NCBI RefSeq assembly: GCF_002163715.1
Contig: NZ_CP015698.1
Span: 3,981,674 to 4,045,673, forward strand
Reading direction: 5' to 3'
Origin: Curvibacter sp. AEP1-3
GTDB lineage: Bacteria > Pseudomonadota > Gammaproteobacteria > Burkholderiales > Burkholderiaceae_C
DNA: 64,000 nucleotides
In this document: one piece after another, positions 15,990 through 54,979 of the stretch
Layout of the letters: the number at the start of each line of letters is the position of its first letter
How positions within the stretch are numbered: the stretch's first letter is position 1
The notes under the pieces: model-generated
The model's input: only the letters and a program-made list of their open reading frames with translations
What the model was told of the DNA's origin: nothing
The model's database searches: none
Translations under genes and position numbers: made by a program

Positions 15990-16619
15990 ATGAAGCGATT
16001 TGCTACTTTTTTTATAGCTACTTGCGCACTATCTGCGGGCGCTACCGGTTTGAATGACTTGGAATCCTTTATCAAGGGCGTCAAGTCGGGGAAAGCGGAG
16101 TTCAGCCAAGTCGTCACAGCGCCTGCCAAGGAAGGGCAGGTCGCCCGAAGCAAAGTCTCCAGCGGCACCTTCGAGTTTTTGCGCCCCGGGCGTTTCAAGT
16201 TCACCTACAAGAAGCCTTTTGAGCAAACCATCGTCGCAGATGGGCAGACGCTGTGGCTCTATGACGTGGATCTGAACCAGGTCACTGCACGCAAACAAGC
16301 CCAAGCCCTAGGCTCCACGCCAGCAGCACTGATTGCATCGTCGGCAGACATCAAGGCTCTGCAGGCGGATTTCAATCTCGCTGATTCCCCAGACAAAGAT
16401 GGTCTGCAATGGGTGCAGGGCGCACCCAAGGCCAAAGACAGCCAGTTGCAAAGTGTGCGGGTCGGATTCCGGCAAGGAAAGCTCGAAATACTTGAAATAG
16501 TTGACACTTTTGGCCAGAAATCAGTGCTGACGTTCAACGGATTCCAGAGCAACCCCGTTACGGACCCTGAACTATTCCAGTTCAAGCCGCCCGCTGGGGC
16601 GGATGTTGTCCGTCAATAG
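15990..16619 (+). CDS. lolA: Outer-membrane lipoprotein carrier protein LolA
   Basis: This 209-residue periplasmic protein carries lipoproteins from the LolCDE complex to LolB at the outer membrane. Family signatures include the GTFEFLRPGRFKFTYKKPFEQ region and a C-terminal NPVTDPELFQFKPPAGADVV. The signal peptide MKRFATFFIATCALSAGA is unusual: its hydrophobic core and cleavage region (residues 5-18) are encoded by dispersed repeat copy 3. The gene starts 7 bases after the ftsK stop, giving the common ftsK-lolA pair. Confidence 0.95.
   Translation: MKRFATFFIATCALSAGATGLNDLESFIKGVKSGKAEFSQVVTAPAKEGQVARSKVSSGTFEFLRPGRFKFTYKKPFEQTIVADGQTLWLYDVDLNQVTARKQAQALGSTPAALIASSADIKALQADFNLADSPDKDGLQWVQGAPKAKDSQLQSVRVGFRQGKLEILEIVDTFGQKSVLTFNGFQSNPVTDPELFQFKPPAGADVVRQ
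16002..16047 (+). repeat. Dispersed repeat copy 3, encoding the LolA signal peptide core
   Basis: It follows the family pattern GCTACTTTTTTTATAGCTAC, then GCGCACTATC, then GGGCGCTACCGG. The whole copy is inside the lolA coding region, in frame, coding for ATFFIATCALSAGAT. Confidence 0.85.
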
Positions 16620-16679
16620 ACGGTGTATCGGGGCCAGCCAGAAAATGTTGGCTTGGCCTCTATCTGAGGGAGATTGCGT

Positions 16680-17513: not shown

Positions 17514-18809
17514 GTGGCAACTTCCCCATCCAAACACCAGCCACTGGCCGAACTGCTGCGCCCCAAAACGCTGGGTGAAGTCATCGGCCAGCAGCATCTG
17601 CTGGGGGAGGGCATGGCCTTGCGTCTGGCTTTCGAGTCGGGCCAACCGCACAGCTGTATCCTGTGGGGGCCGCCCGGCGTGGGCAAGACTACGATCGCGC
17701 GCTTGATGGCCGACGCCTTTGACGCCCAATTCATCACCATCAGTGCGGTGTTGGGCGGAATCAAGGAAATCCGCGAGGCGGTGGATCAGGCCCTGAATGC
17801 GCGTGATGGCCTCGAGCAGCGTCGCACCATCGTCTTCGTGGACGAGGTGCACCGGTTCAACAAGAGCCAGCAGGACGCGTTTCTGCCGCATGTGGAGAGT
17901 GGCTTATTTACCTTCATCGGTGCGACCACCGAGAACCCGTCGTTTGAAGTGAATTCTGCTTTGCTGTCGCGTGCAGCGGTGTACGTGTTGCAGCCTCTGG
18001 ATGCTGAGAGTTTGAAGCAAATTGTGCTGAAAGCGCAGACGGAATATGCGCTACCAGCTATTGAAAGCATAGCAATTGATCGATTGATTGCGTATGCAGA
18101 TGGTGATGCACGCCGTCTTCTCAACACACTGGAAACGCTCGCCATTGCTGCCCGCCAGGAGCAAGTACCAGAGATTACGGATGCATGGCTGCTCAAGGTG
18201 CTGGGCGAACGCATGCGGCGCTATGACAAGGGCGGGGAGCAGTTCTATGACACGATTTCCGCCCTGCATAAAAGCGTGCGGGGTTCCGACCCGAACGCGT
18301 CACTCTATTGGTTCACCCGTATGTTGGATGGAGGGGCAGATCCGCGCTACATGGCCCGCCGCTTCATTCGAATGGCTGCTGAAGACATAGGATTGGCGGA
18401 TCCCCGTGCCCTGCGTTTGGCATTGGATGCGGCGGATGTATACGAGCGCTTGGGCAGCCCGGAAGGTGAATTGGCCTTGGCCGAATGCGTGGTCTATCTG
18501 GCTGTAGCGCCCAAGAGCAACGCGGTTTACAAGGCCTTCAATGAGGCCAAAGCGTTCGTGAAAAAAGACGGTACACGCCCAGTGCCCATGCACCTGCGCA
18601 ACGCGCCGACCAAGCTCATGAAGGAGCTGGACTACGGCAAGGGCTATCGCTATGCCCATGACGAGGAGGGCGGCTTTGCAGCGGGTGAACGCTATCTGCC
18701 GGATGGCATGCCAGACACCGACTTTTACCGCCCCGTGGAACGGGGGCTGGAAATCCGTATTGCTGAGAAGCTACGGGATTTGAAAGATCGCAATCAGAAG
18801 AAAAACTAA
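17514..18809 (+). CDS. rarA: Replication-associated recombination protein RarA (MgsA)
   Basis: This 431-residue AAA+ ATPase acts at stalled replication forks. It has Walker A GPPGVGKTT (near 48), Walker B IVFVDEVHRFN, sensor 1 FIGATTENPSFEVN and the C-terminal tetramerisation region (APKSNAVYKAFNEAKAFV). The start is a GTG. A stretch of the region just before GDARRLLNTLE (VLKAQTEYALPAIESIAID) is encoded by a complete dispersed repeat copy in reverse orientation, in frame and at a place where other RarA proteins vary. ftsK-lolA-rarA is a common gene order; mscS is inserted here. Confidence 0.95.
   Translation: MATSPSKHQPLAELLRPKTLGEVIGQQHLLGEGMALRLAFESGQPHSCILWGPPGVGKTTIARLMADAFDAQFITISAVLGGIKEIREAVDQALNARDGLEQRRTIVFVDEVHRFNKSQQDAFLPHVESGLFTFIGATTENPSFEVNSALLSRAAVYVLQPLDAESLKQIVLKAQTEYALPAIESIAIDRLIAYADGDARRLLNTLETLAIAARQEQVPEITDAWLLKVLGERMRRYDKGGEQFYDTISALHKSVRGSDPNASLYWFTRMLDGGADPRYMARRFIRMAAEDIGLADPRALRLALDAADVYERLGSPEGELALAECVVYLAVAPKSNAVYKAFNEAKAFVKKDGTRPVPMHLRNAPTKLMKELDYGKGYRYAHDEEGGFAAGERYLPDGMPDTDFYRPVERGLEIRIAEKLRDLKDRNQKKN
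18026..18073 (-). repeat. Dispersed repeat copy 4, inside rarA
   Basis: On the minus strand it reads GCTATGCTTTCAATAGCTGG, then GCGCATATTCC, then CTGCGCTTTCAGC, which is a complete copy. It lies wholly in the rarA reading frame without disrupting it. Confidence 0.8.
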
Positions 18810-27017: not shown

Positions 27018-27039
27018 TACTGAAGGTAAATCAGTCATT

Positions 27040-27081
27040 GGCGCTCGTGGATATTGCGCGGGCAGCTCCTGAAATAATAGC
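27040..27081 (-). repeat. Dispersed repeat copy 5 (upstream of the Nudix gene)
   Basis: On the minus strand it reads GCTATTATTTCAGGAGCTGC, then GCGCAATATCC, then GAGCGCC. It occupies the space between cysM and the Nudix gene and ends 11 bases before the Nudix ATG, so it covers the expected ribosome-binding region. Confidence 0.8.
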
Positions 27082-27091
27082 AAAGGCTTCC

Positions 27092-30922: not shown

Positions 30923-30981
30923 GGAGGTTCTTCTAAGAGCGAGCGGCGATTTTACCGGTGCAGGGCTATACCCCGGTATTT

Positions 30982-31029
30982 GCTATGATTTTGATAGCTA
31001 TTGGCGCATATTCAACGAGCGCTAGGGGC
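30982..31029 (+). repeat. Dispersed repeat copy 6 (valS / DUF1330 intergenic)
   Basis: It reads GCTATGATTTTGATAGCTAT, then GCGCATATTCAACG, then AGCGCTAGGGGC. The copy lies between the divergent valS and DUF1330 genes, unlike the copies at convergent junctions. Confidence 0.85.
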
Positions 31030-31110
31030 ATATTTCATTTGCAATCGTGCACGGGGTAGCCGGGGGCGGTATCTTCTACACTGTTGCGCAGCATTCCACA
31101 GGAGACAAAC

Positions 31111-34476: not shown

Positions 34477-35250
34477 ATGTTGTTTTTGCTTTCCCCCGCC
34501 AAATCGCTGGACTACGACACCCCTCTGAATGGTCAGGCCCACACTGCGCCCCTATTCGTCAAAAAGTCCAAGGAATTGATCAGCTTGCTGCGTGCGTATT
34601 CGCCGCAGGACATTGCCGGTCTCATGGACCTGTCCGACAAGCTCTCTGCTCTGAACGTAGCGCGTTACGCGGCCTGGTCGCCCAAAGCCACTGAGAAAAA
34701 CGCCCGCCAGGCCGTGCTGGCCTTCAACGGCGATGTGTATGACGGTCTCGACGCCAAGACATTGGGCGCTGAGGACTTGGCCTGGGCGCAAGAGCACGTG
34801 TGCATCCTCAGCGGCCTCTACGGCGTACTGCGTCCGCTGGACCTGATGCAGCCCTACCGCTTGGAAATGGGCACCGGCCTGAAGGGCCCGCACGGCAGCA
34901 ACCTCTACCAGTATTGGGGCAGCCAGCTTTCGGACTACCTGAACAAACGCTTGAAAGTCGACACCACACCCGTGGTGGTGAATCTGGCCTCGAACGAATA
35001 CTTCAAGGCCGTGGACCTCAAGGCCCTGAAGGGTCGGGTGGTGGAGTGCGTGTTCCAGGAATACAAGGACGGGAACTACAAGATCATCAGCTTCTTTGCC
35101 AAAAAGGCGCGCGGCCTGATGGCCCGCTATGCCATTGAGCACCGCCTGAGTACGCCCGAGCAGCTCAGGGGCTTTGATGTGGACGGCTACGCCTTTGCTG
35201 CGCAAGAGTCCACGCCCGAGCGACTGGTATTTAGAAGAAAACAGGCCTGA
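34477..35250 (+). CDS. yaaA: Peroxide stress protein YaaA
   Basis: This 257-residue cytoplasmic DUF328 protein starts MLFLLSPAKSLDYDTPL, the unmistakable YaaA signature, and contains LSGLYGVLRPLDLMQPYRLEMG and INLASNEYFKAV-type motif. In E. coli it lowers free iron during hydrogen peroxide stress. Its stop codon lies inside dispersed repeat copy 7, which runs into the next gene. Confidence 0.95.
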   Translation: MLFLLSPAKSLDYDTPLNGQAHTAPLFVKKSKELISLLRAYSPQDIAGLMDLSDKLSALNVARYAAWSPKATEKNARQAVLAFNGDVYDGLDAKTLGAEDLAWAQEHVCILSGLYGVLRPLDLMQPYRLEMGTGLKGPHGSNLYQYWGSQLSDYLNKRLKVDTTPVVVNLASNEYFKAVDLKALKGRVVECVFQEYKDGNYKIISFFAKKARGLMARYAIEHRLSTPEQLRGFDVDGYAFAAQESTPERLVFRRKQA

Positions 35251-35291
35251 GCGCCCGTTGATATTGCGCGAGATGCTATGAAAATAAGAGC
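35244..35291 (-). repeat. Dispersed repeat copy 7 (yaaA / hydrolase junction)
   Basis: On the minus strand it reads GCTCTTATTTTCATAGCATC, then GCGCAATATCAACG, then GGCGCTCAGGCC. It contains the yaaA stop (35248-35250) and the ATG of the hydrolase (35278-35280). Confidence 0.75.
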
Positions 35292-36183
35292 AAACGGTAT
35301 CGAGATTGAAGTCGAAGACAGCGCCACGCAGGACGCGTCGTTCGCGGCCAAGCCGGCGGTTCTGCTCATCATGGGGCTGGGTTTGCAACTGATCGCCTGG
35401 CCGCCCGACATGGTGCAGGGGCTGGAGGATGCGGGCTACCGCGTCATCCGTTTTGACAATCGAGATGTGGGCTTAAGCACTCGTATGGATGCTGCGGGAA
35501 AGCCCAACCTGATGTGGGCCAGCCTGCAGTACAAGCTGGGCTTTACGCCTGCAGCCCCTTACTCCTTGAGCGATATGGCTGCAGACGCTATCGGCGTGCT
35601 GGACGCTTTGGGTGTGCGCCAAGCGCATGTGGTGGGCGTGAGCATGGGCGGCATGATCGCGCAGCGCGTGGCACTGGCTGTACCGCAGCGGGTTCTGAGC
35701 CTGACCAGCATCATGAGCAGCAGTGGTGCCAAGGGTCTGCCGGGCCCCGCCCCCGAGGTGCTGCGCGCCATGCTGAGCCGGCCTACGGGCAGCAGCAAGG
35801 CTGCGGTGATCGAGCATTCGGTGGGCCTGTTCCGCGCCATCGGTAGCCCGGCCTTCCCATTGCCGGAATCTGATTTGCGAGCACGCATCACCCGTGGGGT
35901 GGAACGGGCTTTTTACCCGGTCGGTACCTTGCGCCAGATGGTGGCCGTGGTGTCCGACCATGCGCGCTCTTCACTGCTAGGGCGCATCACCGCGCCCACC
36001 CTGGTGGTGCACGGCACGGCCGACCCCTTGGTGCCCTTGGCCTGCGGCCAGGACACGGCCCGCCGCATACCCGGTGCTAAGCTGGTGACCCTTGAAGGCA
36101 TGGGGCACGATCTGCCCCCGGAACCGGTACGTCGCATTCTGGCCGCGCTCTTGTCCCACATAGCGGCCCACCCCGCAGCTTGA
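35278..36183 (+). CDS. Alpha/beta-fold hydrolase
   Basis: This 301-residue protein has the oxyanion region LLIMGLGLQLIAWP, a nucleophile elbow GVSMGGMIAQ (catalytic Ser) and the acid/His near TLVVHGTADPLVPL and LEGMGHDLPPEP. It is a soluble esterase or hydrolase of unknown substrate. The first codons lie in repeat copy 7, which thus supplies its start codon. Placement 27 bases after yaaA suggests cotranscription. Confidence 0.88.
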   Translation: MKIRANGIEIEVEDSATQDASFAAKPAVLLIMGLGLQLIAWPPDMVQGLEDAGYRVIRFDNRDVGLSTRMDAAGKPNLMWASLQYKLGFTPAAPYSLSDMAADAIGVLDALGVRQAHVVGVSMGGMIAQRVALAVPQRVLSLTSIMSSSGAKGLPGPAPEVLRAMLSRPTGSSKAAVIEHSVGLFRAIGSPAFPLPESDLRARITRGVERAFYPVGTLRQMVAVVSDHARSSLLGRITAPTLVVHGTADPLVPLACGQDTARRIPGAKLVTLEGMGHDLPPEPVRRILAALLSHIAAHPAA

Positions 36184-37038: not shown

Positions 37039-37068
37039 CCGTATTGCAGAGAGCCGGTGGCAAGCGAT

Positions 37069-37116
37069 GCTATGGAATTAGTAGCTGCTCGCGCAAAATG
37101 GCTGAGCGCTAGGCAG
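37069..37116 (+). repeat. Dispersed repeat copy 8 (queF / GGDEF-EAL junction)
   Basis: It reads GCTATGGAATTAGTAGCTGC, then GCGCAAAATGGC, then GAGCGCTAGGCAG. The GCGCTAG block contains the stop of the converging GGDEF-EAL gene, whose last residues EIAA are read from the repeat end. Confidence 0.8.
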
Positions 37117-39760
37117 CTATTTCTTCACTCATCAGCCCGCGATTGAAGGCATCTACCGGCTGGGGGCGCCCGAACAGGTAGCCCTGGCACAAGTGGCAGC
37201 CGTGCGCGGCCAGGAAGGCGCGTTGGGCTTCGGTTTCCACGCCCTCGGCCAGCACTTCCAATCCCAGGTTGTTCCCCATGCCGATGATGGTCTGGATGAT
37301 CATCGAGTCGGTAGCCTGCAGTCCGATGTTGTGCACAAAGGATTGGTCGATCTTCAGTTGGTCCAGCGGCAGGCGCGTGAGGTAGGCCAGCGACGAATGG
37401 CCGGTGCCGAAATCGTCCATGGAGAAGCGAACACCCAGTGACTTGAGCGCGTGCATTTTTTCTACAGTGTCATCCACGTTATCCAGCACCAGACTCTCAG
37501 TCAGCTCCAGTTTGAGCAGGCTGGCCCGGGCACCGCTGGCGCGCAGCGTGCCACGTACATGCTCCACAAACTCGGCTTGCCGGAATTGGCGGGCACTCAC
37601 ATTCACCGACAGCTGCAAATCCGCTGTCTCCGGGGTAGATTGCCACTCGGCCAACTGTTTGCATGCCTGCTCCAGCACCCACTGGCCCATAGGCAGAATC
37701 AGGTTGGTCTCTTCCGCCAGACTGATGAACTCTGCCGGCATCACCATGCCGCGCAACGGGTGGTGCCAGCGGATCAAGGCCTCGGCGCCTACCGGTGTAC
37801 CGTTGTCCGTGACCTGCAACTGGTAGTACAGCTCAAACTGGGATTCACTGATGCCGCGGCGCAGATCGTTTTCAAGGTTGGCGCGTGCCTCGATGATGGC
37901 CAGCATGCCAGGGTCAAAGAAGCACAGCGCATTGCGCCCGGTGTTTTTCACCTGGTACATCGCAATGTCCGCTTGTTTGAGCAGCTCAGCCGCATTCTGT
38001 TGGCTATCGCCGAACATGGCTGCACCCAGACTGCAAGAGCTGCGGTAGTGTTTGCCTTTGAGCGTGTAGGGCTCGTTGATGGATCGCAGCACGTTGTCGC
38101 CCACCAGTCGGGTCTGGCGCGCGGCCTCCGCGGCGTCCGGGCTCAGGTCCAAGAGCATGACCACAAATTCGTCACCGCCCAGCCGCGCCACCGTGTCTGC
38201 TTCGCGCACGCAGCCTTTCACGCGCTGCGCCACTTGCTGCAACAGCAGGTCCCCCACATCGTGCCCCAGGGTGTCGTTCAGCGTTTTGAAGTGGTCCAGG
38301 TCCATGAACAACAGGGCGCCATGCCGGCCACTGCGCACGGTGGCCACCAGCGCCTGTTGCAGCCGGTCGGTCAGCAGCCGACGGTTGGGCAAGCCGGTGA
38401 GGGGGTCAAAGAAAGCCAGTTGCTCGATCTCGGCGCTGGCACGGCGCAGGCGGGTCACGTCCTGGTAGACGATGACCACGCCGCCATCCGGCGTGCCACG
38501 CTCCGTGATTTCGATGATGCGGCCATTGGGAAACTCGCGCTCGTGGCTGTGCACCCCTTGCGACATGAGCGACATGCGGTTGGCCACCCACTGCACTCTG
38601 GCCTCCTCGGGTACATCGCCCAGGGTTTCCAGTGCCGTGACCATAAGCATCTTCTCGAAGGAAGCGCCCGCCTTGATCTCACCCGCCTGCCAGGGGTACA
38701 TCTCCAGGTAGCGGCGGTTCCAGGTCACGACTTTGCGCTGGGCATCCAGCAGCAGAAAGCCGCTCTCCATGGATTCAAGGGCGCGGTCGGTCGTGGCCTT
38801 GGCGTCGCTGATGGAGCGCTGGGCGCGGCCCATGCTTTGCAGATAGCGCACCGCGGCAAAGCCTGCCCCGGCCAGGAACAGGCTGAAGGCCAGTCCCACC
38901 AGACCGATCAGTCGCACCTGGAAGCGCCAATCTGCCATTACGGTTTCCATGGGAATGCTGGCCGTGATCAGCAGATCGTTATAGAGCATGGGCCGTGAGG
39001 CCACCAGGGCAGGGCGCTGCTGGATGCGCGACTGCATTTCCCGGGCGTTCACACTGGCGTTGCTCCCCAAAGCCGGGTTGAGGATGACGCCGTTCAGCGC
39101 GTCCTGTGCCGGCATGCTGGCCAGAAGTTGCCCGTTCCCCCGTTCCAGGGTGGCTTCCAGCTGGCTGATGTCGGCCCCTTGCACGAGGATGGTGGTGATC
39201 AGGTTGACCGGTACCTCCGCCACTGCAAGTAGCTTGCTGCCATCGGCTAGTTTCAGGTGCCGCCCGAAAAACAAGACCTGCTCCGCACTGCGCGGGCTGA
39301 TCACCGGCTGGCTGATGATGAGGGTGGACACCGGCACGTTGATGGCCTCACTCACAAAGCTCGGTGGTGTCTCAGGGTTGGTCTCCGCACCCTGGCTTTC
39401 GGAGCTGGCGACGACCGTGCCTTGTGCGTCCATGAGCCAGACATTGCGCACCAGCAGGTTTTGCCGGGTGGCACCCTGAATCAATTTGCCGGCCAGCGGA
39501 CCCTCCAGCCAGTCGGCCTGCATGCTGTCCAGATTGAGCAGGCTACTCAGGCTGGCCAGCAGCACATCGACCCCCAGCAAGCTGCGGTTGACCGCAGCTT
39601 GTGCCCCCGTGACAAAGCGGTCTGCTTGCGATTTGCCATCCGTGATGGCACCGGTGTAAAGGTTTCTGGCCAGCAGCGTGGTGGCGGCGGCTACTGACAA
39701 AATCAAGGCCACCGTCACCACGACGGCGGACAAAGTGGCCTTGGAGTAGCGTTGTGGCAT
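37109..39760 (-). CDS. Membrane GGDEF-EAL protein with periplasmic sensor
   Basis: This 883-residue inner-membrane protein can make and break c-di-GMP. A membrane helix at about 10-30 is followed by a periplasmic region of about 250 residues. A second membrane helix (GLVGLAFSLFLAGAGFAAVRY), a PAS domain (about 340-455), GGDEF at 528-532 with an upstream RxxD inhibitory site (CVREADTVARLGGDEF), and EAL at 660-662 (GAEALIRWHHP) follow. Both catalytic motifs are intact. It overlaps the stop of the upstream binding-protein gene by one base (TGATG), so it is translated with it. This makes the binding protein a candidate ligand-loaded partner of the periplasmic region. Confidence 0.92.
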   Translation of the reverse strand: MPQRYSKATLSAVVVTVALILSVAAATTLLARNLYTGAITDGKSQADRFVTGAQAAVNRSLLGVDVLLASLSSLLNLDSMQADWLEGPLAGKLIQGATRQNLLVRNVWLMDAQGTVVASSESQGAETNPETPPSFVSEAINVPVSTLIISQPVISPRSAEQVLFFGRHLKLADGSKLLAVAEVPVNLITTILVQGADISQLEATLERGNGQLLASMPAQDALNGVILNPALGSNASVNAREMQSRIQQRPALVASRPMLYNDLLITASIPMETVMADWRFQVRLIGLVGLAFSLFLAGAGFAAVRYLQSMGRAQRSISDAKATTDRALESMESGFLLLDAQRKVVTWNRRYLEMYPWQAGEIKAGASFEKMLMVTALETLGDVPEEARVQWVANRMSLMSQGVHSHEREFPNGRIIEITERGTPDGGVVIVYQDVTRLRRASAEIEQLAFFDPLTGLPNRRLLTDRLQQALVATVRSGRHGALLFMDLDHFKTLNDTLGHDVGDLLLQQVAQRVKGCVREADTVARLGGDEFVVMLLDLSPDAAEAARQTRLVGDNVLRSINEPYTLKGKHYRSSCSLGAAMFGDSQQNAAELLKQADIAMYQVKNTGRNALCFFDPGMLAIIEARANLENDLRRGISESQFELYYQLQVTDNGTPVGAEALIRWHHPLRGMVMPAEFISLAEETNLILPMGQWVLEQACKQLAEWQSTPETADLQLSVNVSARQFRQAEFVEHVRGTLRASGARASLLKLELTESLVLDNVDDTVEKMHALKSLGVRFSMDDFGTGHSSLAYLTRLPLDQLKIDQSFVHNIGLQATDSMIIQTIIGMGNNLGLEVLAEGVETEAQRAFLAAHGCHLCQGYLFGRPQPVDAFNRGLMSEEIAA

Positions 39761-40848
39761 CAGCGAGCGGCGGTGCTGGGCGGCACGGCGGACCATACGC
39801 TGCCGATGGTGTTGTCCCACATATCTTTGCAGCGCTGGTTACACCGTTGCATCCAGCGTGGAATGACCACTGTGCGCAGGATTTCTTGCATTCTTTGGGC
39901 ATCTTTTTTGGAAGGAGCGACTTCCTTCATGCTGCCTTTGCGTGTACCTGTGCAGGATGCATCGCCTCGGTTGCAGGCAAGTCCTTCGGCAGTCTCACGT
40001 TCGCTTTCGGCCCATATGTTGGCCTCCAGCTTGGGTATTTCGCGCCCCAGAACTGCGCGCAAGTCCGCAGGCAGTGCGTTCCAAGCATTCAGATTGGCGC
40101 CGAAAAGTGCCAAGCCCCAGCTGATGGGCATGGGGTGGTAATACTCGGTGACTTCATGCAGGCCGATGGTGTAGCCGGACATGGTGCCGGTGATAGCGCA
40201 CTCGGTGTTGCCGGACTGCATATTCGCCACGATCTGGCTGAATCCCACCAGCACGGGCACTCCGCCCAACGCAGCGACCATGTCGGATTGGGTGGGTGAG
40301 GAAACACGGATGCGCCGCCCTTCCAGATCCAGCAGGCTGCTGAATTGGCGTTTGCAGAACAGCACTTGCGCCGGGTAGATATACACCGCCAGCAGTTCCA
40401 CTCCATGTTTTTCACGCAACATTTTTTGCAAATAGGGGCGGTACGCGGCGAGATTGCGGCGCAGGCTGGCGATGTCGGGGTTCAGGCCTGCGAGGTCGAT
40501 GGCACCCAGCATGGGATTTTGGGCGGAGGAAAGGTTCATGAGCGCAGTGCCGAAGGGCACGACGCCGAGTTCCATCAAGCGAAGCATTTCTTCACCAGGA
40601 ACGCCGGACCGGTCAAAAGGAGCTATCTCTGCGCTGTATTTGCCTGCGGTCAGACGGGACAGCTCTTGGGTCCAGAAGGGCTCCTCATTGCGCACGTACT
40701 GGTGTATGCCCGCCAAGCCGCCCACGATGCGCAAGCGTTGTCCACCCGCGGGTGCTGGTGGCGCGGCCTGAGCCCAAGCCTGCGCAAGGCAAGTCCAGAG
40801 TACCAACATCCAAGCCAACAACGTGCGGGGGCTTAGTTTTTTCTCCAC
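39760..40848 (-). CDS. Orphan TRAP-type (DctP-like) periplasmic binding protein
   Basis: This 362-residue secreted protein has a signal peptide (KLSPRTLLAWMLVLWTCLAQAWA). DctP-type fold signatures include GGVPVLVGFSQIVANMQSGNTECAITG and the domain around MLGAIDLAGLNPDIASLRRN. The start is a GTG with an ideal AGGAGG ribosome-binding site. The C-terminal 80 residues are unusual, with two cysteine pairs (CNRGDASC and CNQRCKDMW). No TRAP permease genes are nearby. It is cotranscribed with the GGDEF-EAL gene, so a sensory rather than transport role is likely. The ligand is unknown. Confidence 0.85.
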   Translation of the reverse strand: MEKKLSPRTLLAWMLVLWTCLAQAWAQAAPPAPAGGQRLRIVGGLAGIHQYVRNEEPFWTQELSRLTAGKYSAEIAPFDRSGVPGEEMLRLMELGVVPFGTALMNLSSAQNPMLGAIDLAGLNPDIASLRRNLAAYRPYLQKMLREKHGVELLAVYIYPAQVLFCKRQFSSLLDLEGRRIRVSSPTQSDMVAALGGVPVLVGFSQIVANMQSGNTECAITGTMSGYTIGLHEVTEYYHPMPISWGLALFGANLNAWNALPADLRAVLGREIPKLEANIWAESERETAEGLACNRGDASCTGTRKGSMKEVAPSKKDAQRMQEILRTVVIPRWMQRCNQRCKDMWDNTIGSVWSAVPPSTAAR

Positions 40849-40915: not shown

Positions 40916-43531
40916 TCACAGATTCAGATTTTGGGTCCCAGCGGACAAGATCAGTGCATCAGCGGGCGCCGGGCGCCCGAAGTAATAGCCTTGGAAGGCA
41001 TCACATTGCATGGCGGCCAGGGCATCGCGTTGTTCGGCGGTTTCCACGCCTTCCGCAATCACCGTCAGTCCCAGGCTGTGGCCCAGTGCGACCACCGTGC
41101 GAGCGATCACCGCATCGCTAGGGTCAGTCAGTACGTCGCGCACAAAGGACTGGTCGATCTTGAGTTGCGACAGGGGCAGACGCTTGAGGTACGAAAGGGA
41201 CGAATAGCCTGTGCCGAAGTCATCGAGCGAGAAGCTCACCCCCAGCTCCTTGATCGCCATCATCTTGACGATGATGTCTTCCACATCGTCCACCAACATG
41301 CTCTCTGTCAGTTCCAGCTTGAGCTGACCGGCCGGCGCACCGGAGCGTTGCAGCGCCTCGCGTACGCTGGCCACGAATTCGGGTTGCGCCAGCTGCGAGG
41401 CACTTACGTTGACAGCGAGGGTCCAGTGGGCGGTCATGGGGTTGCGGCTCCATTCCACCAATTGCTGGCAAGCGGACTCCATCACCCATTCGCCCAGCGG
41501 CAGGATCATGCCGGTCTCTTCGGCCAGCGGAATGAAGTGGGCAGGCGACACCAGCCCGCGCACCCGGTGGTTCCAACGCACCAGAGCCTCTGCGCCTGTA
41601 CAGCGGCCCTGGCTATCGATTTGCACCTGGTAGTGCAGCACGAATTCGTGCCGCTGCAAGCCCAGCCGGATTTCCTTGGCCAGCTCGGCGTGGGTAGTAA
41701 CGGCAGCCTGCATGACCGGGTCGAAGAAGCGCGCGGTGTTGCGGCCTGCTGCCTTGGCCTGGTACATGGCGACGTCCGCTTTTTTGAGCAGGTCGTCCAT
41801 GGTTTCATGGTCTTCCATGAACACCACAATCCCGATACTGGGGGTGCTGTTGTAGCCGTGGCCACGCAGACTGTAGGGCAGGGCCAGTGCGTCCAGAATT
41901 TTGTGGGCCACCACCTCGGCCTGGTTGGCGGCGTCGGTGCGGTTGTCGCTCAAGCCTTCCAGCAGCACCACAAATTCATCGCCGCCCAGGCGCGCCACGC
42001 TGTCGCCTTCGCGAACGCAGTTGCGCAGGCGGTAGGCCACTTGCTGCAAAAGTTCGTCCCCCACATCGTGGCCCAGGGTGTCATTGAGCAGCTTGAAGTG
42101 GTCCAGGTCCAGAAACATCAGCGCGCCATGCTGACCTAGTCGTGCACTATTGACCATGGCCTGGCGCACTCGGTCCATCAACAGGCGCCGGTTGGGCAAG
42201 CCGGTGAGCGGGTCGTAGAAGGCGAGGCGGCGGATTTCTTCTTCGTCCTGGCGCTGCTGGGTAATGTCCCGCAGCGTCACCACAAAGGTATCGTGTTCGG
42301 TGTGCGGTATGCGTGAGGCCGACACGCTGATGGGCCGTATGGCCCCGTTGGCATGCCGTCCGTTGACCTCGGCGCTTGCGCCTTCAATGCCATCCACCGT
42401 GCTCAGCAACTCGAGGTGTCCTTGTGCATTGAGCGGTAGCTGCGTGCCCAAGAGTTCGCTGAGTGTCTGGGGGCGGGGCGCCTCGGGGTCGCGCCCCATC
42501 ATTCGGCAGGCGGCATTGTTGAAAGTGTGGATACGACCATTCAAATCCAGTGTGACCAAGCCGTCAACCATGCTGTCGAGGATGGCCTGGCGATAGAGCC
42601 CCGCTTCTTCAATGGCCTGGCGGTCCTGCCGGATCTGCCGGTCATTCAAATCGTTTTCAATCGCCAGGCTGAGCAGGTAGGCGCTTCGGCGTGCCGACTG
42701 GAGTTCCGAGTCAGACGGAATGCGGGCTACGCCGTAATAGTTGGCAAAGGTACCGATCACCTTGCCCTTGGTGGACCGGATGGGCACCGACCAGCAGGCC
42801 CGCAGCCCATGGCTCAGGGCTAGTTCCTTGAAGGGTGCCCACAAGGGATCACTGGCAATATCCGAGACAAGGACTTCCTTGCCAGTGAATGCCGCGGTAC
42901 CACAGGAGCCAACACTGGCACCGATGGCGATTCCGTCAATCGCCTGGCAGTACGCCGCGGGTAGGCTGGGCGCTGCGCCGTGTTTGAGGTGCTTGCCTTC
43001 TTCGTCCATCAACAGGACCGAGCCCATCACACCGGTGAATACGGCTTCGTAGCGCAGGATGAACTCCGACATGATGTCCAGCAAGGGCACATCAGAGGCC
43101 AGCATCTCCAACAAGCCGCGCTCTGCCGCATTCTGTTGCTGTAGTTGGCGTTGTTCGGTGATGTCGACCGTGGAGCCCACGATCAGGGAGGGTTGTCCCT
43201 CTGCATCAAAAAGGGGAACCAACGTGGTCAGGGTATGGCGTGCGCTTTGTTGCCCGTTGCCCTTCACCTCGTCTTCGTGGGTGACCGTAGTCCCGGCACT
43301 GAACGCCTCAAGATCCCGCTGGTGAAAAGATGCGAGCTGCTCCGCGCTCAGCACATCGCTCACTGCGGCTGCCGGTGAGCCGCCCAATGCGGGCGCCATG
43401 GACTGGCGCCAGGTCCGGTTCACATAGATGACATGGCCCTGGGTGTCTTTGACGAACAGCGGAACCGGCACCCCTTCCAGCAACTGGATCAGATCGTGTG
43501 ATTGGAGTGAGCGCAGGTTCTTGTCAGGCAT
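40916..43531 (-). CDS. PAS-GAF-PAS-GGDEF-EAL protein
   Basis: This soluble 871-residue c-di-GMP protein has an N-terminal PAS (VPVPLFVKDTQGHVIYVNRTW), a GAF domain (about 130-300, with SVPIRSTKGKVIGTFANYY), a second PAS (about 315-430) and GGDEF at 516-520. A conserved inhibitory site (CVREGDSVARLGGDEF) precedes GGDEF, and EAL is at 648-650 (GAEALVRWNHR). All catalytic residues look intact. There is no membrane segment, so the signal is cytoplasmic. It lies 67 bases upstream of the binding-protein gene in the same direction and could belong to the same transcript. Confidence 0.92.
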   Translation of the reverse strand: MPDKNLRSLQSHDLIQLLEGVPVPLFVKDTQGHVIYVNRTWRQSMAPALGGSPAAAVSDVLSAEQLASFHQRDLEAFSAGTTVTHEDEVKGNGQQSARHTLTTLVPLFDAEGQPSLIVGSTVDITEQRQLQQQNAAERGLLEMLASDVPLLDIMSEFILRYEAVFTGVMGSVLLMDEEGKHLKHGAAPSLPAAYCQAIDGIAIGASVGSCGTAAFTGKEVLVSDIASDPLWAPFKELALSHGLRACWSVPIRSTKGKVIGTFANYYGVARIPSDSELQSARRSAYLLSLAIENDLNDRQIRQDRQAIEEAGLYRQAILDSMVDGLVTLDLNGRIHTFNNAACRMMGRDPEAPRPQTLSELLGTQLPLNAQGHLELLSTVDGIEGASAEVNGRHANGAIRPISVSASRIPHTEHDTFVVTLRDITQQRQDEEEIRRLAFYDPLTGLPNRRLLMDRVRQAMVNSARLGQHGALMFLDLDHFKLLNDTLGHDVGDELLQQVAYRLRNCVREGDSVARLGGDEFVVLLEGLSDNRTDAANQAEVVAHKILDALALPYSLRGHGYNSTPSIGIVVFMEDHETMDDLLKKADVAMYQAKAAGRNTARFFDPVMQAAVTTHAELAKEIRLGLQRHEFVLHYQVQIDSQGRCTGAEALVRWNHRVRGLVSPAHFIPLAEETGMILPLGEWVMESACQQLVEWSRNPMTAHWTLAVNVSASQLAQPEFVASVREALQRSGAPAGQLKLELTESMLVDDVEDIIVKMMAIKELGVSFSLDDFGTGYSSLSYLKRLPLSQLKIDQSFVRDVLTDPSDAVIARTVVALGHSLGLTVIAEGVETAEQRDALAAMQCDAFQGYYFGRPAPADALILSAGTQNLNL

Positions 43532-45386: not shown

Positions 45387-46628
45387 ATGCTGTCCCAGCT
45401 GATCTATACCAGCCAGGCCCATGAGGACCTCACCCCTGAGGCCCTGCAAGCTATTGCCTCGGCCGCAGCCCGCAACAACGCGCGGGTCGATGTTTCGGGC
45501 TTGCTGATTTATGACCAGGGCTGCTTCTTGCAGGTCATGGAAGGCGAAGATCCAGTCATCCTCGCACTCTTCCAAAGGCTCAAAAAAGACACCCGCCACA
45601 GCAATATGGTGAAGCTGATTCACGAGCCGATCGCGCAGCGCCGGTTTGCGAAATGGAGCATGGGCTTGGCGGCACCCAAGCTGGGTGTGCAATCCGAGGT
45701 GGGCATCGTGGGGCTCTCCACCTGGAGTGAGCTGCTGGCCAGCCATGCGCTGCAAAACCTGACTGAAGACCGAGTGCGCACCGTACTCGATGCGTTTACC
45801 CAAGGCCGTTGGCACCATCACGTGATGATGCCGGGCGCCGATTCTGTTCCGCATTCGCGCAGTGCCAAGGACCCGGAGTTGTTCATTGCGGGTCGCCATC
45901 TGAGCCCTGAGTACAGGGCATTGCTACCCGCCTCGGGCCCTTTGTTTGCGTACCAGCCTATCGTGGATTTCCAGACCCGGCGCGTGAGCTCTTACGAGGC
46001 ACTGCTCCGCGGTCCGGCAGGTGAGTCGCCGCATTCCGTGCTGGGGGCTTTCTCCGGCGAGGCCTTGCACCGTTTTGACCTGATGAGCAAAGTGTCTGCG
46101 CTTTCCATCGCCCAGCAGCTGGGTACTGATGCCCGCCTTTCACTCAATCTGCTACCCCAATCGTTGCTGGCGGACGCCAATGCCGTCGACTTTCTGGTGC
46201 AAGCGGCAGCACGCCACGGCTTCACCCCGGATCGCATCGTGCTGGAAGTCACCGAAGAAGAAGCGATAACGGACCCCGACATGTTTGCCGACGCGGTCAA
46301 ACGCGTTCGCTCAGCAGGTATGCGCGTGGCCATTGATGACTTTGGCGCCGGGTTTGCAGGTCTGTCGCTCTTGGCGGACTTTCAGCCCGACAAACTCAAG
46401 ATTGACCGTTGCATAGTCCAGAACGTGCACGAAAGCGGGCCCCGTCAAGCCATTGTGCGGGCCATCGTGGAGTTTTGTTATTGCCTTGGCATTGCCGTGG
46501 TGGCTGAGGGCGTGGAGACCGTCGAGGAGTTCAACTGGCTGCGCCATGCGGGTGTCAACCGGATTCAGGGATATTTGATTGCCAGGCCCGGACTGTGTGC
46601 CTTGCCAGCGGTGGAGTGGCGGGGTTAA
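45387..46628 (+). CDS. Blue-light sensing BLUF-EAL protein
   Basis: This 413-residue protein has an N-terminal BLUF flavin domain (1-95) joined to an EAL domain. The BLUF residues needed for the photocycle are visible: Tyr7 (LIYTSQ), Asn31, Gln49 (FLQVMEGE) and Trp90 (KWSMGL). In the EAL domain the motif is intact at 204-206 (SYEALLRG), and the metal-binding DDFGAGFAGL is present, so it should hydrolyse c-di-GMP under light control. ATG 45387 is used because it gives MLSQLIYTSQ. Its stop overlaps the end of converging dinB by four bases. Confidence 0.93.
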   Translation: MLSQLIYTSQAHEDLTPEALQAIASAAARNNARVDVSGLLIYDQGCFLQVMEGEDPVILALFQRLKKDTRHSNMVKLIHEPIAQRRFAKWSMGLAAPKLGVQSEVGIVGLSTWSELLASHALQNLTEDRVRTVLDAFTQGRWHHHVMMPGADSVPHSRSAKDPELFIAGRHLSPEYRALLPASGPLFAYQPIVDFQTRRVSSYEALLRGPAGESPHSVLGAFSGEALHRFDLMSKVSALSIAQQLGTDARLSLNLLPQSLLADANAVDFLVQAAARHGFTPDRIVLEVTEEEAITDPDMFADAVKRVRSAGMRVAIDDFGAGFAGLSLLADFQPDKLKIDRCIVQNVHESGPRQAIVRAIVEFCYCLGIAVVAEGVETVEEFNWLRHAGVNRIQGYLIARPGLCALPAVEWRG

Positions 46629-47893
46629 AAGAGCTGACCTGTCAGCGGATCGTTTGCTATGTTTTTAGTAGCTGCTCGCGCATATTCCACGTGCGCTACC
46701 GGCTTGTTTTTCATAAATTCCAACGCTTCATCCTCACTGAGCAGTGCGCCTACGCGGACGCCCAGGAGGCGTAGGCGTTTTTGTAATGGCGCGCGCTTGA
46801 GGCACAGGCCCGCAATTCGTCGTATGTCTTTTGCGTCAGCCGTGAAGTAGTCCACCGTGATGTCTCGGGTCACGCTTTTGAAATCGTCAAACCGCAGTTT
46901 GATTCCCACGGTTTTTCCGCGGTAGCCCTTGCGCTGCAGGTCGTCCGCCACCTGTTCACACAGACGGGTAAAGATGGCGCCTAGCTCGGCCTTGTCGCGC
47001 ACCGCGTGCAGGTCGCGGTCAAACGTGGTCTCGCGGCTCATGCTCACCGGCTCACTCTCGGTTTCCACCGGCCTGTCGTCCTGCCCGTGGGCGGCAGCAA
47101 ACAGCCAGGCACCGGTGCGCGGTCCAAAGGTGTCCATCAGCCACTGCAGCTCTTTGGCGGCCAACTGGCCAATGGTTTCTATGCCGTGCTTTTTGAGTTT
47201 CTCGTCGGCCTTGGGGCCTATGCCATTGATCTTGCGGCAGGCCAGGGGCCAGATCATGGGTTCCAGGTCGCTCTCATGGACGATGGCAATGCCGTTGGGC
47301 TTGTTGAACTCGCTGGCCATCTTGGCCAGCAGTTTGTTGGGCGCTACGCCCACCGAGCAGGTGAGGCCCGTGTCATCAAAAATGGCCTTCTGGATCAGCC
47401 GCGCCAGCACGCGGCCGCCTTGGCGTTGCCCACCAGGCACCTGGGTGAAGTCGATGTACACCTCATCCACCCCGCGGTTCTCCATGACCGGGGCAATGTC
47501 AGTGATGATGGCTTTGAAGCGCTGCGAGTAGTGCCGGTACTGGGCAAAGTCCACCGGCAACAGAATGGCTTGCGGACACAATTTGGCCGCTTTCATGAGC
47601 CCCATGGCCGAGCCCACGCCGAACTGCCGGGCGGCATACGTGGCGGTGGTGATGACGCCGCGACCGGTGTAGCCATCCAAGAGCGGGAAATCGGCGACCG
47701 GAATTTTGTGCAGCGGCGTGTCTGCGTGTTTGACCAGTAACGCGTCATCCGCATGCCGCCGCCCGCCACCAATCACCACCGGCAGCCCCTTGAGCTGCGG
47801 GTAGCGGAGCAACTCCACCGACGCATAAAACGCATCCATGTCCAAGTGCGCAATGCGGCGCACGACGGATGAGGGCGACTTTTCAGCTTGCAT
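46625..47893 (-). CDS. dinB: DNA polymerase IV
   Basis: This Y-family translesion polymerase extends past damaged bases. The 422-residue protein has the active-site HLDMDAFYASVELL at the start and the catalytic GVDEVYIDFTQ with its Asp-Glu pair. It also has the helix-hairpin-helix INGIGPKADEKLKKHGI and the little-finger region. The C-terminal 18 residues, beyond the conserved part, are encoded by repeat copy 9; a beta-clamp-binding motif, usually at the very end, is not obvious there. A GTG two codons upstream of ATG 47893 is an alternative start. Confidence 0.94.
   Translation of the reverse strand: MQAEKSPSSVVRRIAHLDMDAFYASVELLRYPQLKGLPVVIGGGRRHADDALLVKHADTPLHKIPVADFPLLDGYTGRGVITTATYAARQFGVGSAMGLMKAAKLCPQAILLPVDFAQYRHYSQRFKAIITDIAPVMENRGVDEVYIDFTQVPGGQRQGGRVLARLIQKAIFDDTGLTCSVGVAPNKLLAKMASEFNKPNGIAIVHESDLEPMIWPLACRKINGIGPKADEKLKKHGIETIGQLAAKELQWLMDTFGPRTGAWLFAAAHGQDDRPVETESEPVSMSRETTFDRDLHAVRDKAELGAIFTRLCEQVADDLQRKGYRGKTVGIKLRFDDFKSVTRDITVDYFTADAKDIRRIAGLCLKRAPLQKRLRLLGVRVGALLSEDEALEFMKNKPVAHVEYARAATKNIANDPLTGQLF
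46656..46703 (+). repeat. Dispersed repeat copy 9, inside the end of dinB
   Basis: It reads GCTATGTTTTTAGTAGCTGC, then GCGCATATTCCACG, then TGCGCTACCGGC. It is wholly in the coding region of dinB (opposite strand), giving its C-terminal residues KPVAHVEYARAATKNIAN. Confidence 0.85.
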
Positions 47894-48022
47894 GTCCACG
47901 AGGATATCAAGCCCGAGGAGTCGTAAGCCTCCTGCCCAGTGGCTGAGATATCATGGATTCGGGGATATCAGCAGCGCCACAAAAACCAAAGAGCGCTGCA
48001 TAAATGGACAGCAGGAACGTCG

Positions 48023-51912: not shown

Positions 51913-52718
51913 GCCGCGTGCTGCGCCAAGGCCTGCCCCAATGAGTGGGCGCCCGGCGCATACAACCCCAGACCCAGACCGACCAAGGCCAACAACAGTG
52001 CCGTTACCGCAAAGGGCACTGCAGTGTGGCGCATGGCGGTTTGCACCCAATGCGGGCTGTCTGAGGTGCGCAAACGGCGGTACAGGGTGTACGAGAGCAC
52101 GCCATCAAACATCAATTCAGAGAACAGCACCGGCGCGATGTAAATCACATACAGCGAGGCCAATGCCATGCCCACGGCCATCACGATGGCAATCAGCGGA
52201 ATGGCGATCTCATCCGCATCGCTCACACTGCCTGCGGCATCGCTCAGCCCGGAAAACAAACCGGGTGTGTCCGTGGAGGGCAATGAGGGGCTGCCCAAGG
52301 CCGGGCTGTCGAGGGCGGGGCTATCCCATGGGGCGCTGGCGCCACCGCCCGCATAGTCGCCACCGCCACCACTTTTGAAAGGCGCTGCGGCAAGGTCTGC
52401 GGCGTCGGCGCAGTGGCGGCTGCTACCCGTGCCGTTCCAGTTGGGGCTGGGCAGGTCAAAGAAATCCCGGCTGTCTATGCGAAGCCACAGCCATAACAGC
52501 AGCATGAAGAATCCGTAGGCAGCGCCCACCGCCAGCGGGTAGCGTAGGGCCATGCTGTGCATGCCGGCATGCAAGAGCAGGGCAGAACAAAGCCAACCCC
52601 CCGCGCCCGTGAGTGCCACCAGCAGGGCCATTTGCAGGCGGGGGAATGACTTGGTTTCCAAATGCTGCTGTACACGCAGGATGGCGTGGTAGCGGGTAAC
52701 GCGGATGTGTCGGGTCAT
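51906..52718 (-). CDS. Integral membrane protein, unknown function
   Basis: This 270-residue protein has about five hydrophobic segments (for example LQMALLVALTGAGGWLCSALLL, ALRYPLAVGAAYGFFMLLLWLWL, IPLIAIVMAVGMALASLYVIYIA). A Gly/Ser/Asp-rich soluble insert lies in the middle (SGGGGDYAGGGASAPWDSP, 115-185). It was not matched to a named family. The start overlaps the stop of pbpC by ATGA, so it is translated with the penicillin-binding protein and may act in the same envelope process. Confidence 0.65.
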   Translation of the reverse strand: MTRHIRVTRYHAILRVQQHLETKSFPRLQMALLVALTGAGGWLCSALLLHAGMHSMALRYPLAVGAAYGFFMLLLWLWLRIDSRDFFDLPSPNWNGTGSSRHCADAADLAAAPFKSGGGGDYAGGGASAPWDSPALDSPALGSPSLPSTDTPGLFSGLSDAAGSVSDADEIAIPLIAIVMAVGMALASLYVIYIAPVLFSELMFDGVLSYTLYRRLRTSDSPHWVQTAMRHTAVPFAVTALLLALVGLGLGLYAPGAHSLGQALAQHAAH

Positions 52719-54979
52719 GGTCGGCGTGGGGCGGTCTTGCTGTCCTGCATTTTGACGCCGGCGCCTCGCACCTCCAGGCGTACCTGGTCCAGTACCTTGC
52801 CTTTGCTGTCGACGATCTGGATCACATGCCGCCCCGGCCAGGGCAGCCACAGGGCGGTGTTGCCTTTGGCGACTTGCTTGCCGTCGATCAGCCAACGCAG
52901 GTTGCTGCCTTCTGCTTCCAGGCTCAGGCGCTGAGCTTGGGGCGGAATGTCGGGGTCCAGCGCGAGGATGGTGCCGCTGGTGGGGGACGTGATGCGGGCT
53001 GTGTTTGTGGTGGTGTTGCCGTGATTTTTTGAGTCGTTTGGGCCTCCGGCGCTCGTGGAATATGCGCGAGCAGCTCCTTTTTCCATAGCAAATTTGGCCT
53101 GCTCAGTGCCGCTGATGAACCATTCGCTGCGGGGCGCTTCTCCCTCCACCGTCACCGTTTTTTGCACCAGGCCTGCCGGTGCTTGGGGCGCGCGGCTGCT
53201 TCGCTGGCGATGCAGCTGGTTCATGACCGCGGCCCAGATGGGGGCGGCGCCGGTGGTGCCGCTCACGTCCCACATGGGGGCGCCGCTGGCGTTGCCTACC
53301 CACACGCCCACGGTGTAGCGCTGGCTGTAACCCACGGCCCAGTTGTCGCGCATGTCTTTGCTGGTGCCGGTTTTGACGGCGGCCCAGAAGCGGGTGGCCA
53401 GTACGCTGTCGGTGCCGAAGGTGCGGGCCCGCGCCATCGGGTCGCTCAGGATGTCTCCCACGATGAAAGCGGCCCGCGCATCCAGCGCCGGGCTGAAGGC
53501 CGGAGGCGTGCGGCCCACCGTCAGGCGGGCGGGGCTGGCGCGGCCGCCATTGGCCAGGGTGCGGTAGCTGTTGGTTAGGTTGAGCAGCGTGGTCTCAGCA
53601 CTGCCCAAAGCCAGGCTGTAGCCATAGTAGTCGCCACTCTCCTTGAGCGGCATTCCCATGAGGGCCAGCTGTTTCTGAAAAGCGTCGGGCGACACCATGA
53701 CCAGCGTGCGCACTGCCGGCACGTTCAGCGAGGCGCCCAGTGCGGTGCGGGCCGACACCCAGCCTTTGAACTGGCGGTCGTAGTTCTGCGGGATGTAGAG
53801 CCCGCCGGTGGTCTGAATCTGGGTGGCCGAGTCTTCGAGCAGGGAGGCGGCGGTGATGCGCCGCTCGGAGAGCGCCTGCCCGTACAAAAACGGCTTGAGC
53901 GTGGAGCCGGGCTGGCGCAGCGAGGTCACAAAGTCCACCTCAGGCGCGGCGCTCAGGGGGCCGCTGCTGTTGACCCAAGCCAGCACCTCGCCGCTGGCGT
54001 TGTCCAGCACCAGCAGGGCGGCGTCTTCCACATGCCGGCCGCTCAACTCTCGCAGCTGGGTTTGCATGGCCTGTTGGGCAAAGCGTTGGAGGGGCGCACT
54101 TAAAGAGCTGCGGATGGTGGCCGGTGTGGCGCCATCCCCCGCCGTGGTGCGGGCCAGCTGGCGCGCCACGTGCGGGGCGATGCCCTCGCTGGCCGCAAAG
54201 TCGCGGCGGGCCAGGGCGGAGGCCACCAACAGCTCCATGGCTTCGCAGCCACCACTGCTTGGGCCTGCGGCCTTGTTTGCACTGGTGGGCTCCAGGGTTT
54301 TGAACACACTGCAGGCCCGCTGGGTGACCTGCGCCTCTTTGGCATTGGGCGCGCGGATCAGGGCGGCGGCCACTGCGGCCTCGCGGTGGTCCAGGCCGTG
54401 CGGCGCCTTGCCGAAGAGGCTGCGGCTTAAAGCGTCAATGCCCACCAGCTCGCCCCGGAAGGGCACGAGGTTGAGGTAGGCCTCCAGAATCTGGTCTTTC
54501 CGCCAGCCGCGTTCCAGGCTCTCGGCGGCCATGGTTTGGCCCAGCTTTTGCACCACGCTGCGGCCGGAGTTGCTGCGCTTCAAATCCTCGTCCAACAAGC
54601 CGGCAAGCTGCATGGTGATGGTGGAGGCTCCCCGGGTTTTGGTGTTCCACAGGTTGGCCCAGGCGGCGGCGGACACGGCTCGCCAGTCCACCCCGCTGTG
54701 CTCGTAAAAGCGCTTGTCCTCGCTCAGCACCAGCGCCGTGCGTAGCGCGGGCGACACATCCGCTAGCGCGACCCACTGCCCGCGGCGCACGCTGGTGTCG
54801 GTGCGCAGGCGGTGCAGCACTTCGCCTTGGCGGTCCAGCAGCATGGTGTCAGAAGGCTTATAGCCAGCCTTTACTTGCTCAAAAGTGGTTTTGGCGCCCG
54901 CCGAATGTGCGCAAGCGGCTATCAAAAGCGTAGCAAAAGTGAGGCGCAGCCTGCCTGTAGCCTTGGTGACCTTAGGCAC
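52715..54979 (-). CDS. pbpC: Penicillin-binding protein 1C
   Basis: This bifunctional class A PBP polymerises and crosslinks peptidoglycan in the periplasm. It has a transglycosylase domain (LSEDKRFYEHSGVDW, GASTITMQL), a transpeptidase domain with active-site STLK (QPGSTLKPF), the SxN motif ASLN and KTGT (AVKTGTSKD), and the PBP1C C-terminal domain (SPTSGTILALDPDIPP). No ATG lies between the divergent gene and the conserved region, so GTG 54979 is proposed (about 754 residues). Its signal sequence LTFATLLIAACAHSAGA and a linker before the C-terminal domain are both encoded by dispersed repeat copies. The IAAC stretch would also fit a lipobox. Confidence 0.88.
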   Translation of the reverse strand: MPKVTKATGRLRLTFATLLIAACAHSAGAKTTFEQVKAGYKPSDTMLLDRQGEVLHRLRTDTSVRRGQWVALADVSPALRTALVLSEDKRFYEHSGVDWRAVSAAAWANLWNTKTRGASTITMQLAGLLDEDLKRSNSGRSVVQKLGQTMAAESLERGWRKDQILEAYLNLVPFRGELVGIDALSRSLFGKAPHGLDHREAAVAAALIRAPNAKEAQVTQRACSVFKTLEPTSANKAAGPSSGGCEAMELLVASALARRDFAASEGIAPHVARQLARTTAGDGATPATIRSSLSAPLQRFAQQAMQTQLRELSGRHVEDAALLVLDNASGEVLAWVNSSGPLSAAPEVDFVTSLRQPGSTLKPFLYGQALSERRITAASLLEDSATQIQTTGGLYIPQNYDRQFKGWVSARTALGASLNVPAVRTLVMVSPDAFQKQLALMGMPLKESGDYYGYSLALGSAETTLLNLTNSYRTLANGGRASPARLTVGRTPPAFSPALDARAAFIVGDILSDPMARARTFGTDSVLATRFWAAVKTGTSKDMRDNWAVGYSQRYTVGVWVGNASGAPMWDVSGTTGAAPIWAAVMNQLHRQRSSRAPQAPAGLVQKTVTVEGEAPRSEWFISGTEQAKFAMEKGAARAYSTSAGGPNDSKNHGNTTTNTARITSPTSGTILALDPDIPPQAQRLSLEAEGSNLRWLIDGKQVAKGNTALWLPWPGRHVIQIVDSKGKVLDQVRLEVRGAGVKMQDSKTAPRRP
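53041..53089 (-). repeat. Dispersed repeat copy 10, in the PBP1C linker
   Basis: On the minus strand it reads GCTATGGAAAAAGGAGCTGC, then GCGCATATTCCACG, then AGCGCCGGAGGCC. It is read in frame as AMEKGAARAYSTSAGG, exactly between the transpeptidase and the C-terminal domain. The reading frame of the repeat is the same as in the signal peptides. Confidence 0.85.
54893..54934 (-). repeat. Dispersed repeat copy 11, encoding the PBP1C signal sequence
   Basis: On the minus strand it reads GCTACGCTTTTGATAGCCGC, then GCGCACATTCGG, then GGGCGCC. It codes for ATLLIAACAHSAGA, matching the LolA copy (ATFFIATCALSAGA) in 10 of 14 residues and in the same frame. Confidence 0.88.

Follow-up and report, generated by a model that had tools for sequence, protein, structure and literature searches.

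Repeats in coding sequences

Delihas (2007; PMC2759123) described RU-2/YPAL and RU-1 (ERIC) elements in enterobacterial genes, and in the passages of that paper drawn on here, a Yersinia repeat makes up part of the signal peptide predicted for a putative exported protein, the relatives of which have unrelated signals. Here, we consider a shorter repeat of Curvibacter sp. AEP1-3, as found in a stretch of 64,000 nucleotides of its 4.38-Mb genome (bases 3981674-4045673 of contig 1; this whole stretch is called the window), where one copy lies over the predicted signal peptide of LolA and another over that of PBP1C. Most likely, this repeat has provided already exported proteins with signal peptides in place of older ones. 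A mobile element as part of one predicted signal peptide is known already from the paper cited, as far as those passages go; what is new here is that the repeat is short, recurs across many conserved exported proteins and is old.

A profile search of 2.464 Mb (2.4 Mb of chromosome plus the window, or 56% of the genome) found 323 copies, 11 of them within the window. In the passages of PMC2759123, the RU-2/YPAL element resembles them in being a mobile element within a predicted signal peptide, with a hydrophobic reading frame noted, but it is 168 bp long and concerns one main putative protein, whereas the present repeat is of about 45 bp, belongs to another family and occurs in many conserved envelope proteins. 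The RPE family of Rickettsia likewise consists of short palindromic repeats lying in frame in many protein genes (PMC2229807, PMC10969869), as is seen here for the 157 of 323 copies that lie inside called genes, with one main frame per strand. By their description, the RPEs are set apart by a length of 105-150 bp and one long stem-loop, and the passages of the two papers drawn on make no mention of signal peptides.

Two other families come close in host or in number. The Beta-proteobacterial repeat element (BRE) occurs in the same host class and family, Rhodoferax and Polaromonas included, and has some copies wholly within coding sequences, but its description in the part of PMC3110155 drawn on differs: 75-91 bp at full length, 69% G+C in Bordetella, tandem clusters and at most 29 copies. 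REP sequences with RAYT transposases are short and palindromic and reach hundreds of copies (PMC2817692, in part); unlike these, our repeat has the consensus TGCTATcaatttaatAGCtgctcgCGCA... with two stems and no GTAG/GTGG head, no transposase flanked by two inverted copies was found here, and about half of the copies are inside genes. No paper on this repeat, or on its use in signal peptides in Comamonadaceae, was recognised by title or abstract start in the open-licence PMC literature.

The predicted signal peptides of LolA and PBP1C

The two genes and the three repeat copies that they contain are as follows.

15990..16619, plus strand: LolA, 209 aa; PF03548 and TIGR00547 above cut-off
16001..16048, plus strand: repeat copy, 35.5 bits; encodes the core of the predicted LolA signal peptide
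52715..54979, minus strand: PBP1C; TIGR02073 above cut-off
53040..53090, minus strand: repeat copy, 46.9 bits; PBP1C linker, in sense, reads AMEKGAARAYSTSA
54882..54935, minus strand: repeat copy, 40.6 bits; encodes the core of the predicted PBP1C signal peptide

Both proteins score above the thresholds of their families (LolA with 215.9 bits in TIGR00547 against a cut-off of 112, PBP1C with 612.4 bits in TIGR02073 against 494.2). LolA begins at the ATG at 15990 with MKRFATFFIATCALSAGA-TGLNDLE, that is, MKRF-ATFFIATCALSAGA-TGLNDLE, in which residues 5-18, the 14-mer ATFFIATCALSAGA, are codons 16002-16043 of the repeat copy; the A-G-A at its end would place cleavage after 16043. PBP1C reads RLTF-ATLLIAACAHSAGA-KTTFEQ, with the 14-mer ATLLIAACAHSAGA taken from repeat codons 54934-54893. 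Its likeliest start is the GTG at 54979, 15 codons ahead of the repeat; the frame is open up to 55153, and a divergent gene is called from 55041.

Examined by eye, MKRF-ATFFIATCALSAGA of LolA and MPKVTKATGRLRLTF-ATLLIAACAHSAGA of PBP1C each have a basic n-region, a hydrophobic core and an A-x-A site, the layout of a Sec-type signal peptide, and we infer that both N-termini act as such. As the sequence-only reading had claimed, the two 14-mers come from the repeat in the same frame and share 10 of 14 residues, and the linker copy of PBP1C (53090-53040) uses this frame too. Its wider statement, that two unrelated proteins draw the core of the signal peptide from one repeat, is supported.

The repeat family

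The profile was built from exact seeds and has 54 positions, about 45 bp of which form the core; scores are given in bits. The consensus, TGCTatcaatttaatAGCtgctcgCGCAgattccacggGCGCtagaggccgatT, contains two short stems, variable loops and a weaker tail. When one mismatch is tolerated, the pattern has 397 matches in the genome versus 3 for a reversed control. The strict pattern is present in 16 of 61 genomes (our own, 36 of the genus and 24 of other families) and in 19 of 150 genomes of the family, our own included. Majority subfamilies differ between relatives, as though whole families had turned over: the variant ending in GGGCTA outnumbers that ending in GCGCTA by 88 to 1 in genome G015, with 2 versus 65 in G000.

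Relative to the 2172 genes called with a custom gene caller, the copies outside genes lie between genes (122) or over their 3' ends (30) or 5' ends (14). In-gene copies use one main frame (67 of 80 in sense, 68 of 77 in antisense) because stop codons leave only one usable frame per strand over the whole model, reading AINLIAARADSTGA... in sense and ...APVESARAAIKLIA in antisense. The sense frame follows the pattern A-x-x-x-(I/V/G)-A-A-(C/R)-A-x-S-x-G-A.

From the copy number and the patchy distribution, we infer that the repeat is mobile. The copies and genomes compared showed no clean empty site, no target duplication and no mover; the copy at 30981 has no counterpart in genome G001, but the site there is not clean. 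Neither the lolA region nor the repeat consensus matched plasmids. A RAYT-type transposase as mover was considered and found to be unsupported, with Y1_Tnp present in 11 of 12 genomes, repeat-free ones included. Within 3.5 kb around the single Y1 gene, G000 has one copy about 0.4 kb away, G034 has one, G007 has one weak copy (10.5 bits) and G001 has none.

Copies at the N-termini of exported proteins

Copies close to called starts are mostly in sense. Within 45 nt, 12 are sense and 1 is antisense (Fisher p=0.0024), although these 12 include one copy that is out of frame and a weak match of 18 bits; within 60 nt, the ratio is 14:4 (p=0.022). For closer study, we assembled the sense in-frame copies no more than about 25 codons from a plausible start, 23 in all, sorted by hand and with Pfam. 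They fall into these groups:

Exported, with a family (first part): LolA, PBP1C, LolB, GspD, DUF1775, PLA1
Exported, with a family (second part): SLT_2 and SLT transglycosylases, Peripla_BP_6, HupE/UreJ, M16 peptidase, UrtB, DUF3047
Exported, no family: three proteins of 119, 138 and 149 aa
Copy in the first membrane helix: Lnt; a BPD_transp_2 permease
N-terminal copy, protein not exported there: ABC ATPase, DUF934, a GTP_EFTU protein, the tail of a BPD_transp_1 permease, a ThiD-like protein

Thus, 16 of the 23 are in exported proteins, 2 in a first membrane helix and 5 elsewhere. By our own crude score, 361 of the 2172 genes look signal-bearing (SP-like), and against this background the 16 of 23 are an excess (binomial p=2.5e-8), as are the 12 judged exported by family alone (p=1e-4). 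The survey of secreted proteins that the sequence-only reading had proposed has turned up further proteins with the pattern; in LolB, the copy supplies the lipobox FIAGC.

Some assignments were made by eye, namely the ThiD-like label (2064611) and the N-terminal calls for DUF3047 and the 119-, 138- and 149-aa proteins. UrtB and HupE/UreJ, both membrane proteins, were counted as signal-bearing, which we take them to be. The copy at 1042487 was retained though weak (18.1 bits). The sense copies left out of the set are 1320153, 1257368, 1323074 and 113499 (start seemingly downstream), 891068 (ambiguous), 1571842 (start codon within the repeat, Tat-like by eye), 936993 and 2360321 (24.2 and 18.2 bits, probably chance), 367982, 1884905 and 1469584 (internal), 2330256, 1000575, 2269606, 812117 and 1379211 (other frames), and 2376705 (overlap of 5 nt).

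The same preference can be seen across the genus in strings that start with ATGA and precede the repeat. Among 103 distinct strings, copied by hand, 53 are in the signal frame and 28 and 22 in the other two (p=0.0004). Antisense copies after ATGA were dropped as a control for this count because the 3' end of the element often gives ATGAAAT on the other strand and inflates it. In other genera, the ATGA pattern was seen in 10 of 12 genomes, as a DNA pattern only, and some of its readings are signal-like.

Copies that might serve as signals are a hydrophobic subset. The 15 signal-peptide copies (all but DUF3047) have a mean hydrophobicity of 1.52 versus 0.59 for 40 internal sense copies (p=4e-6), and taking just the first loop still gives a difference (p=0.015). 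At residue 8, the signal-peptide copies have Cys (10), Arg (3) or Gly (2), whereas Arg (19) is more frequent than Cys (9) among the internal ones, of which AINSGAARAHSTGA is an example. The consensus sense reading itself, AINLIAARADSTGA, has Arg and Asp at places that require a hydrophobic core. The term 'ready-made export signal' is right in that the repeat supplies cores in several exported proteins and too strong as worded, because of that Arg and Asp, because the signal-peptide copies are a subset and because 5 of 23 copies lie in proteins not exported there. Judging by their sequences, only suitable or later tuned copies would serve as a signal, and the repeat is not a universal ready-made one.

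Outside this set, an antisense copy lies in a signal-like N-terminus in its antisense frame (MKKSLLALILLAQAATFSVA, G000:C1:1410882-1411124, L101:10882-11124). The sense copies at G000:C1:367982 and 1884905 seem to encode internal membrane helices (ALILVAVCAALTSA and AAILIASGAYSMGA), and the hydrophobic reading of the repeat may also serve as helix material.

Relatives with and without the repeat

For LolA, 43 loci were collected and six duplicate or short ones removed, leaving 37 in the tree, where LolA of the window groups among Rhodoferax. The signal region matches the repeat with at least 20 bits in 21 of these, with 5-20 bits in 5 and with less than 5 bits in 11, which include outgroups such as Ramlibacter and Variovorax and carry other, unrelated signals. 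Repeat labels cluster on the tree: they require 5 changes, versus 12.3 when shuffled, and none of 500 shuffles gave so few. The match in Acidovorax LolA is 21-24 bits, and the exchange may therefore predate the genus or have occurred on two occasions. Most of the 120 nearest LolA proteins listed have a related signal by eye.

PBP1C gives the same picture in 23 loci, with a match of at least 20 bits in 15, of 5-13 bits in 3 and of zero in 5, and unrelated signals in the relatives without a match. Descent of one signal peptide in relatives with and without the repeat, which would have spoken against the sequence-only reading, is thus not what LolA and PBP1C display. By eye, many LolB homologues have FIAGCA or a close form and that of Delftia has LALAGCA, and DUF1775 homologues are split in a similar way. 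No gain of export was found among the proteins with the repeat, those of known family being exported types anyway. Because repeat-free relatives of LolA and PBP1C have unrelated signals, the repeat most likely replaced older signals of these already exported proteins rather than conferring export.

Conservation at the DNA level

Within lolA (24 loci of at least 13 bits), the codons of the blocks are conserved much more strongly than those of the mature part. At one position, all 23 of the 23 Ile codons are ATA, and GCT makes up 21 of 21, 22 of 24 and 21 of 23 codons at others; the excess codon identity is 0.353 in the blocks versus 0.108 in the mature part, a difference that none of 20000 draws equalled. 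In 349 ordinary SP-like genes, the rare codon ATA shows no enrichment (0.066 vs 0.061). At eight orthologous copies compared with G001, 143 of 160 block bases are identical versus 125 of 184 in the loops (p=2e-6), with flanks at 0.72, and the comparison with G007 gives 194 of 200 and 208 of 230 (p=0.006). Match scores also rise with the repeat count of the host (rho 0.90, n=18; 0.84, n=15; kinship ignored). These results suggest that the repeat is maintained as DNA too. Neither a DNA function nor a factor was found for it, and no Rfam RNA family matched it in the window, where only a tRNA reached the gathering score.

Weighing the explanations

On our preferred reading, a two-stem interspersed repeat of about 45 bp, at home in Rhodoferax, patchy elsewhere in the family and with one stop-free consensus frame per strand, would come to overlap the signal-peptide region in genes whose products were exported beforehand. 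Copies would be retained where their variable bases spell hydrophobic residues, or tuned later, and would replace or extend the earlier signal, the fixed blocks giving the end of the h-region and the A-x-A cleavage site (the lipobox in LolB) and the loops the remainder of the hydrophobic stretch; in lolA and pbpC, this exchange would be old. That copies over the signal regions of already exported proteins were kept or tuned in this way, replacing or lengthening old signals, we regard as probable. Several observations weigh against it. The sense excess near starts fades by 90 nt (15:9, p=0.27), 5 of the 23 N-terminal copies are in proteins not exported there, and the division into exported and not exported is our own judgement. 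A second hydrophobic stretch follows the repeat in the M16 peptidase, the 119-aa lipoprotein and GspD, where the repeat may therefore merely lengthen the signal. LolA with the repeat does not form one clade (of the 5 changes, starred branches force 3), and the changes may be gains or losses.

Signal peptides tolerate much exchange, and as the most permissive coding region they might simply let repeats survive without benefit; the pattern would then be a filter on the places that can bear an insertion, and the repeat would not be a donor of signals. The exported types of all the known-family proteins and the lack of any gain of export found fit such tolerance, as do the more polar loops of copies in non-exported N-termini (e.g., ATNNIAATAHSTGA). 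What it does not account for is that the signal-peptide copies are tuned and that LolA and PBP1C have no other hydrophobic stretch left, so that the repeat must be their present signal if they have one at all; as a full account, pure tolerance is a tentative possibility. That two hydrophobic, Ala-rich signal peptides converged by chance is extremely improbable: Ala, Ile, Leu and Ser are common in signal peptides, and two weak near-start matches (18.1 and 24.2 bits) may be chance, but for LolA and PBP1C the idea is refuted by the DNA-level matches of 35.5 and 40.6 bits, along with the rare codons, the 397 versus 3 control matches and the bias in frame and strand.

The repeat might instead be a DNA motif under selection of its own, a binding site or RNA element that emerges or persists at many sites, is not mobile and falls on signal peptides at some of them. 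We find this rather doubtful, despite the stronger conservation of blocks than loops at orthologous copies, the invariant ATA in lolA and the way in which match scores track the repeat load of the host, since that correlation ignores kinship, no factor or RNA family was found, and the copy type of lolA agrees with the host majority in 10 of 13 cases (p=0.10); concerted change with the host subfamily is not claimed. It is unlikely that a host-maintained motif also writes the targeting signals of LolA, LolB, PBP1C, GspD and the lytic transglycosylases, as a doubly coded element whose DNA function would fix rare codons in signal peptides wherever a genome retains that family of repeats; on loss of the element, the DNA would drift while the peptide stays hydrophobic.

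Under the preferred reading, evolution appears to have repeatedly swapped the signal peptides of conserved envelope proteins with one dispersed DNA repeat. Genes with and without the repeat, and hosts with rich and poor repeat families, form a natural series in which to study the origin of new signal peptides and to ask if selection acting on a repeat as DNA can determine protein sequence. We recommend that annotators treat alike N-termini in unrelated exported proteins of these genomes as a sign of the repeat and not of kinship.

Other copies in the window

The window has eight further copies:

4947..5000, plus strand: 37.7 bits; overlaps the 3' end of a gene
8032..8077, plus strand: 45.6 bits; between called genes
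18032..18074, minus strand: 29.1 bits; within the called plus-strand gene 17514-18809
27029..27082, minus strand: 43.1 bits; between called genes
30981..31034, plus strand: 45.5 bits; between called genes; no counterpart in G001
35250..35292, minus strand: 30.6 bits; spans the start of a called plus-strand gene (35278)
37068..37113, plus strand: 39.4 bits; 3' end of the minus-strand gene 37109-39796
46655..46704, plus strand: 48.2 bits; 3' end of the minus-strand gene 46625-47899

The copy at 37068-37113 is at the same place in G007 and shares only 33 of 43 core bases with it, the lowest value among the compared copies, with the loops changed and the stems kept. Apart from the repeat, positions 38087-38462 and 41894-42269 are direct repeats of each other, 74% and 70% alike, in two adjacent large minus-strand genes that are probably paralogues.
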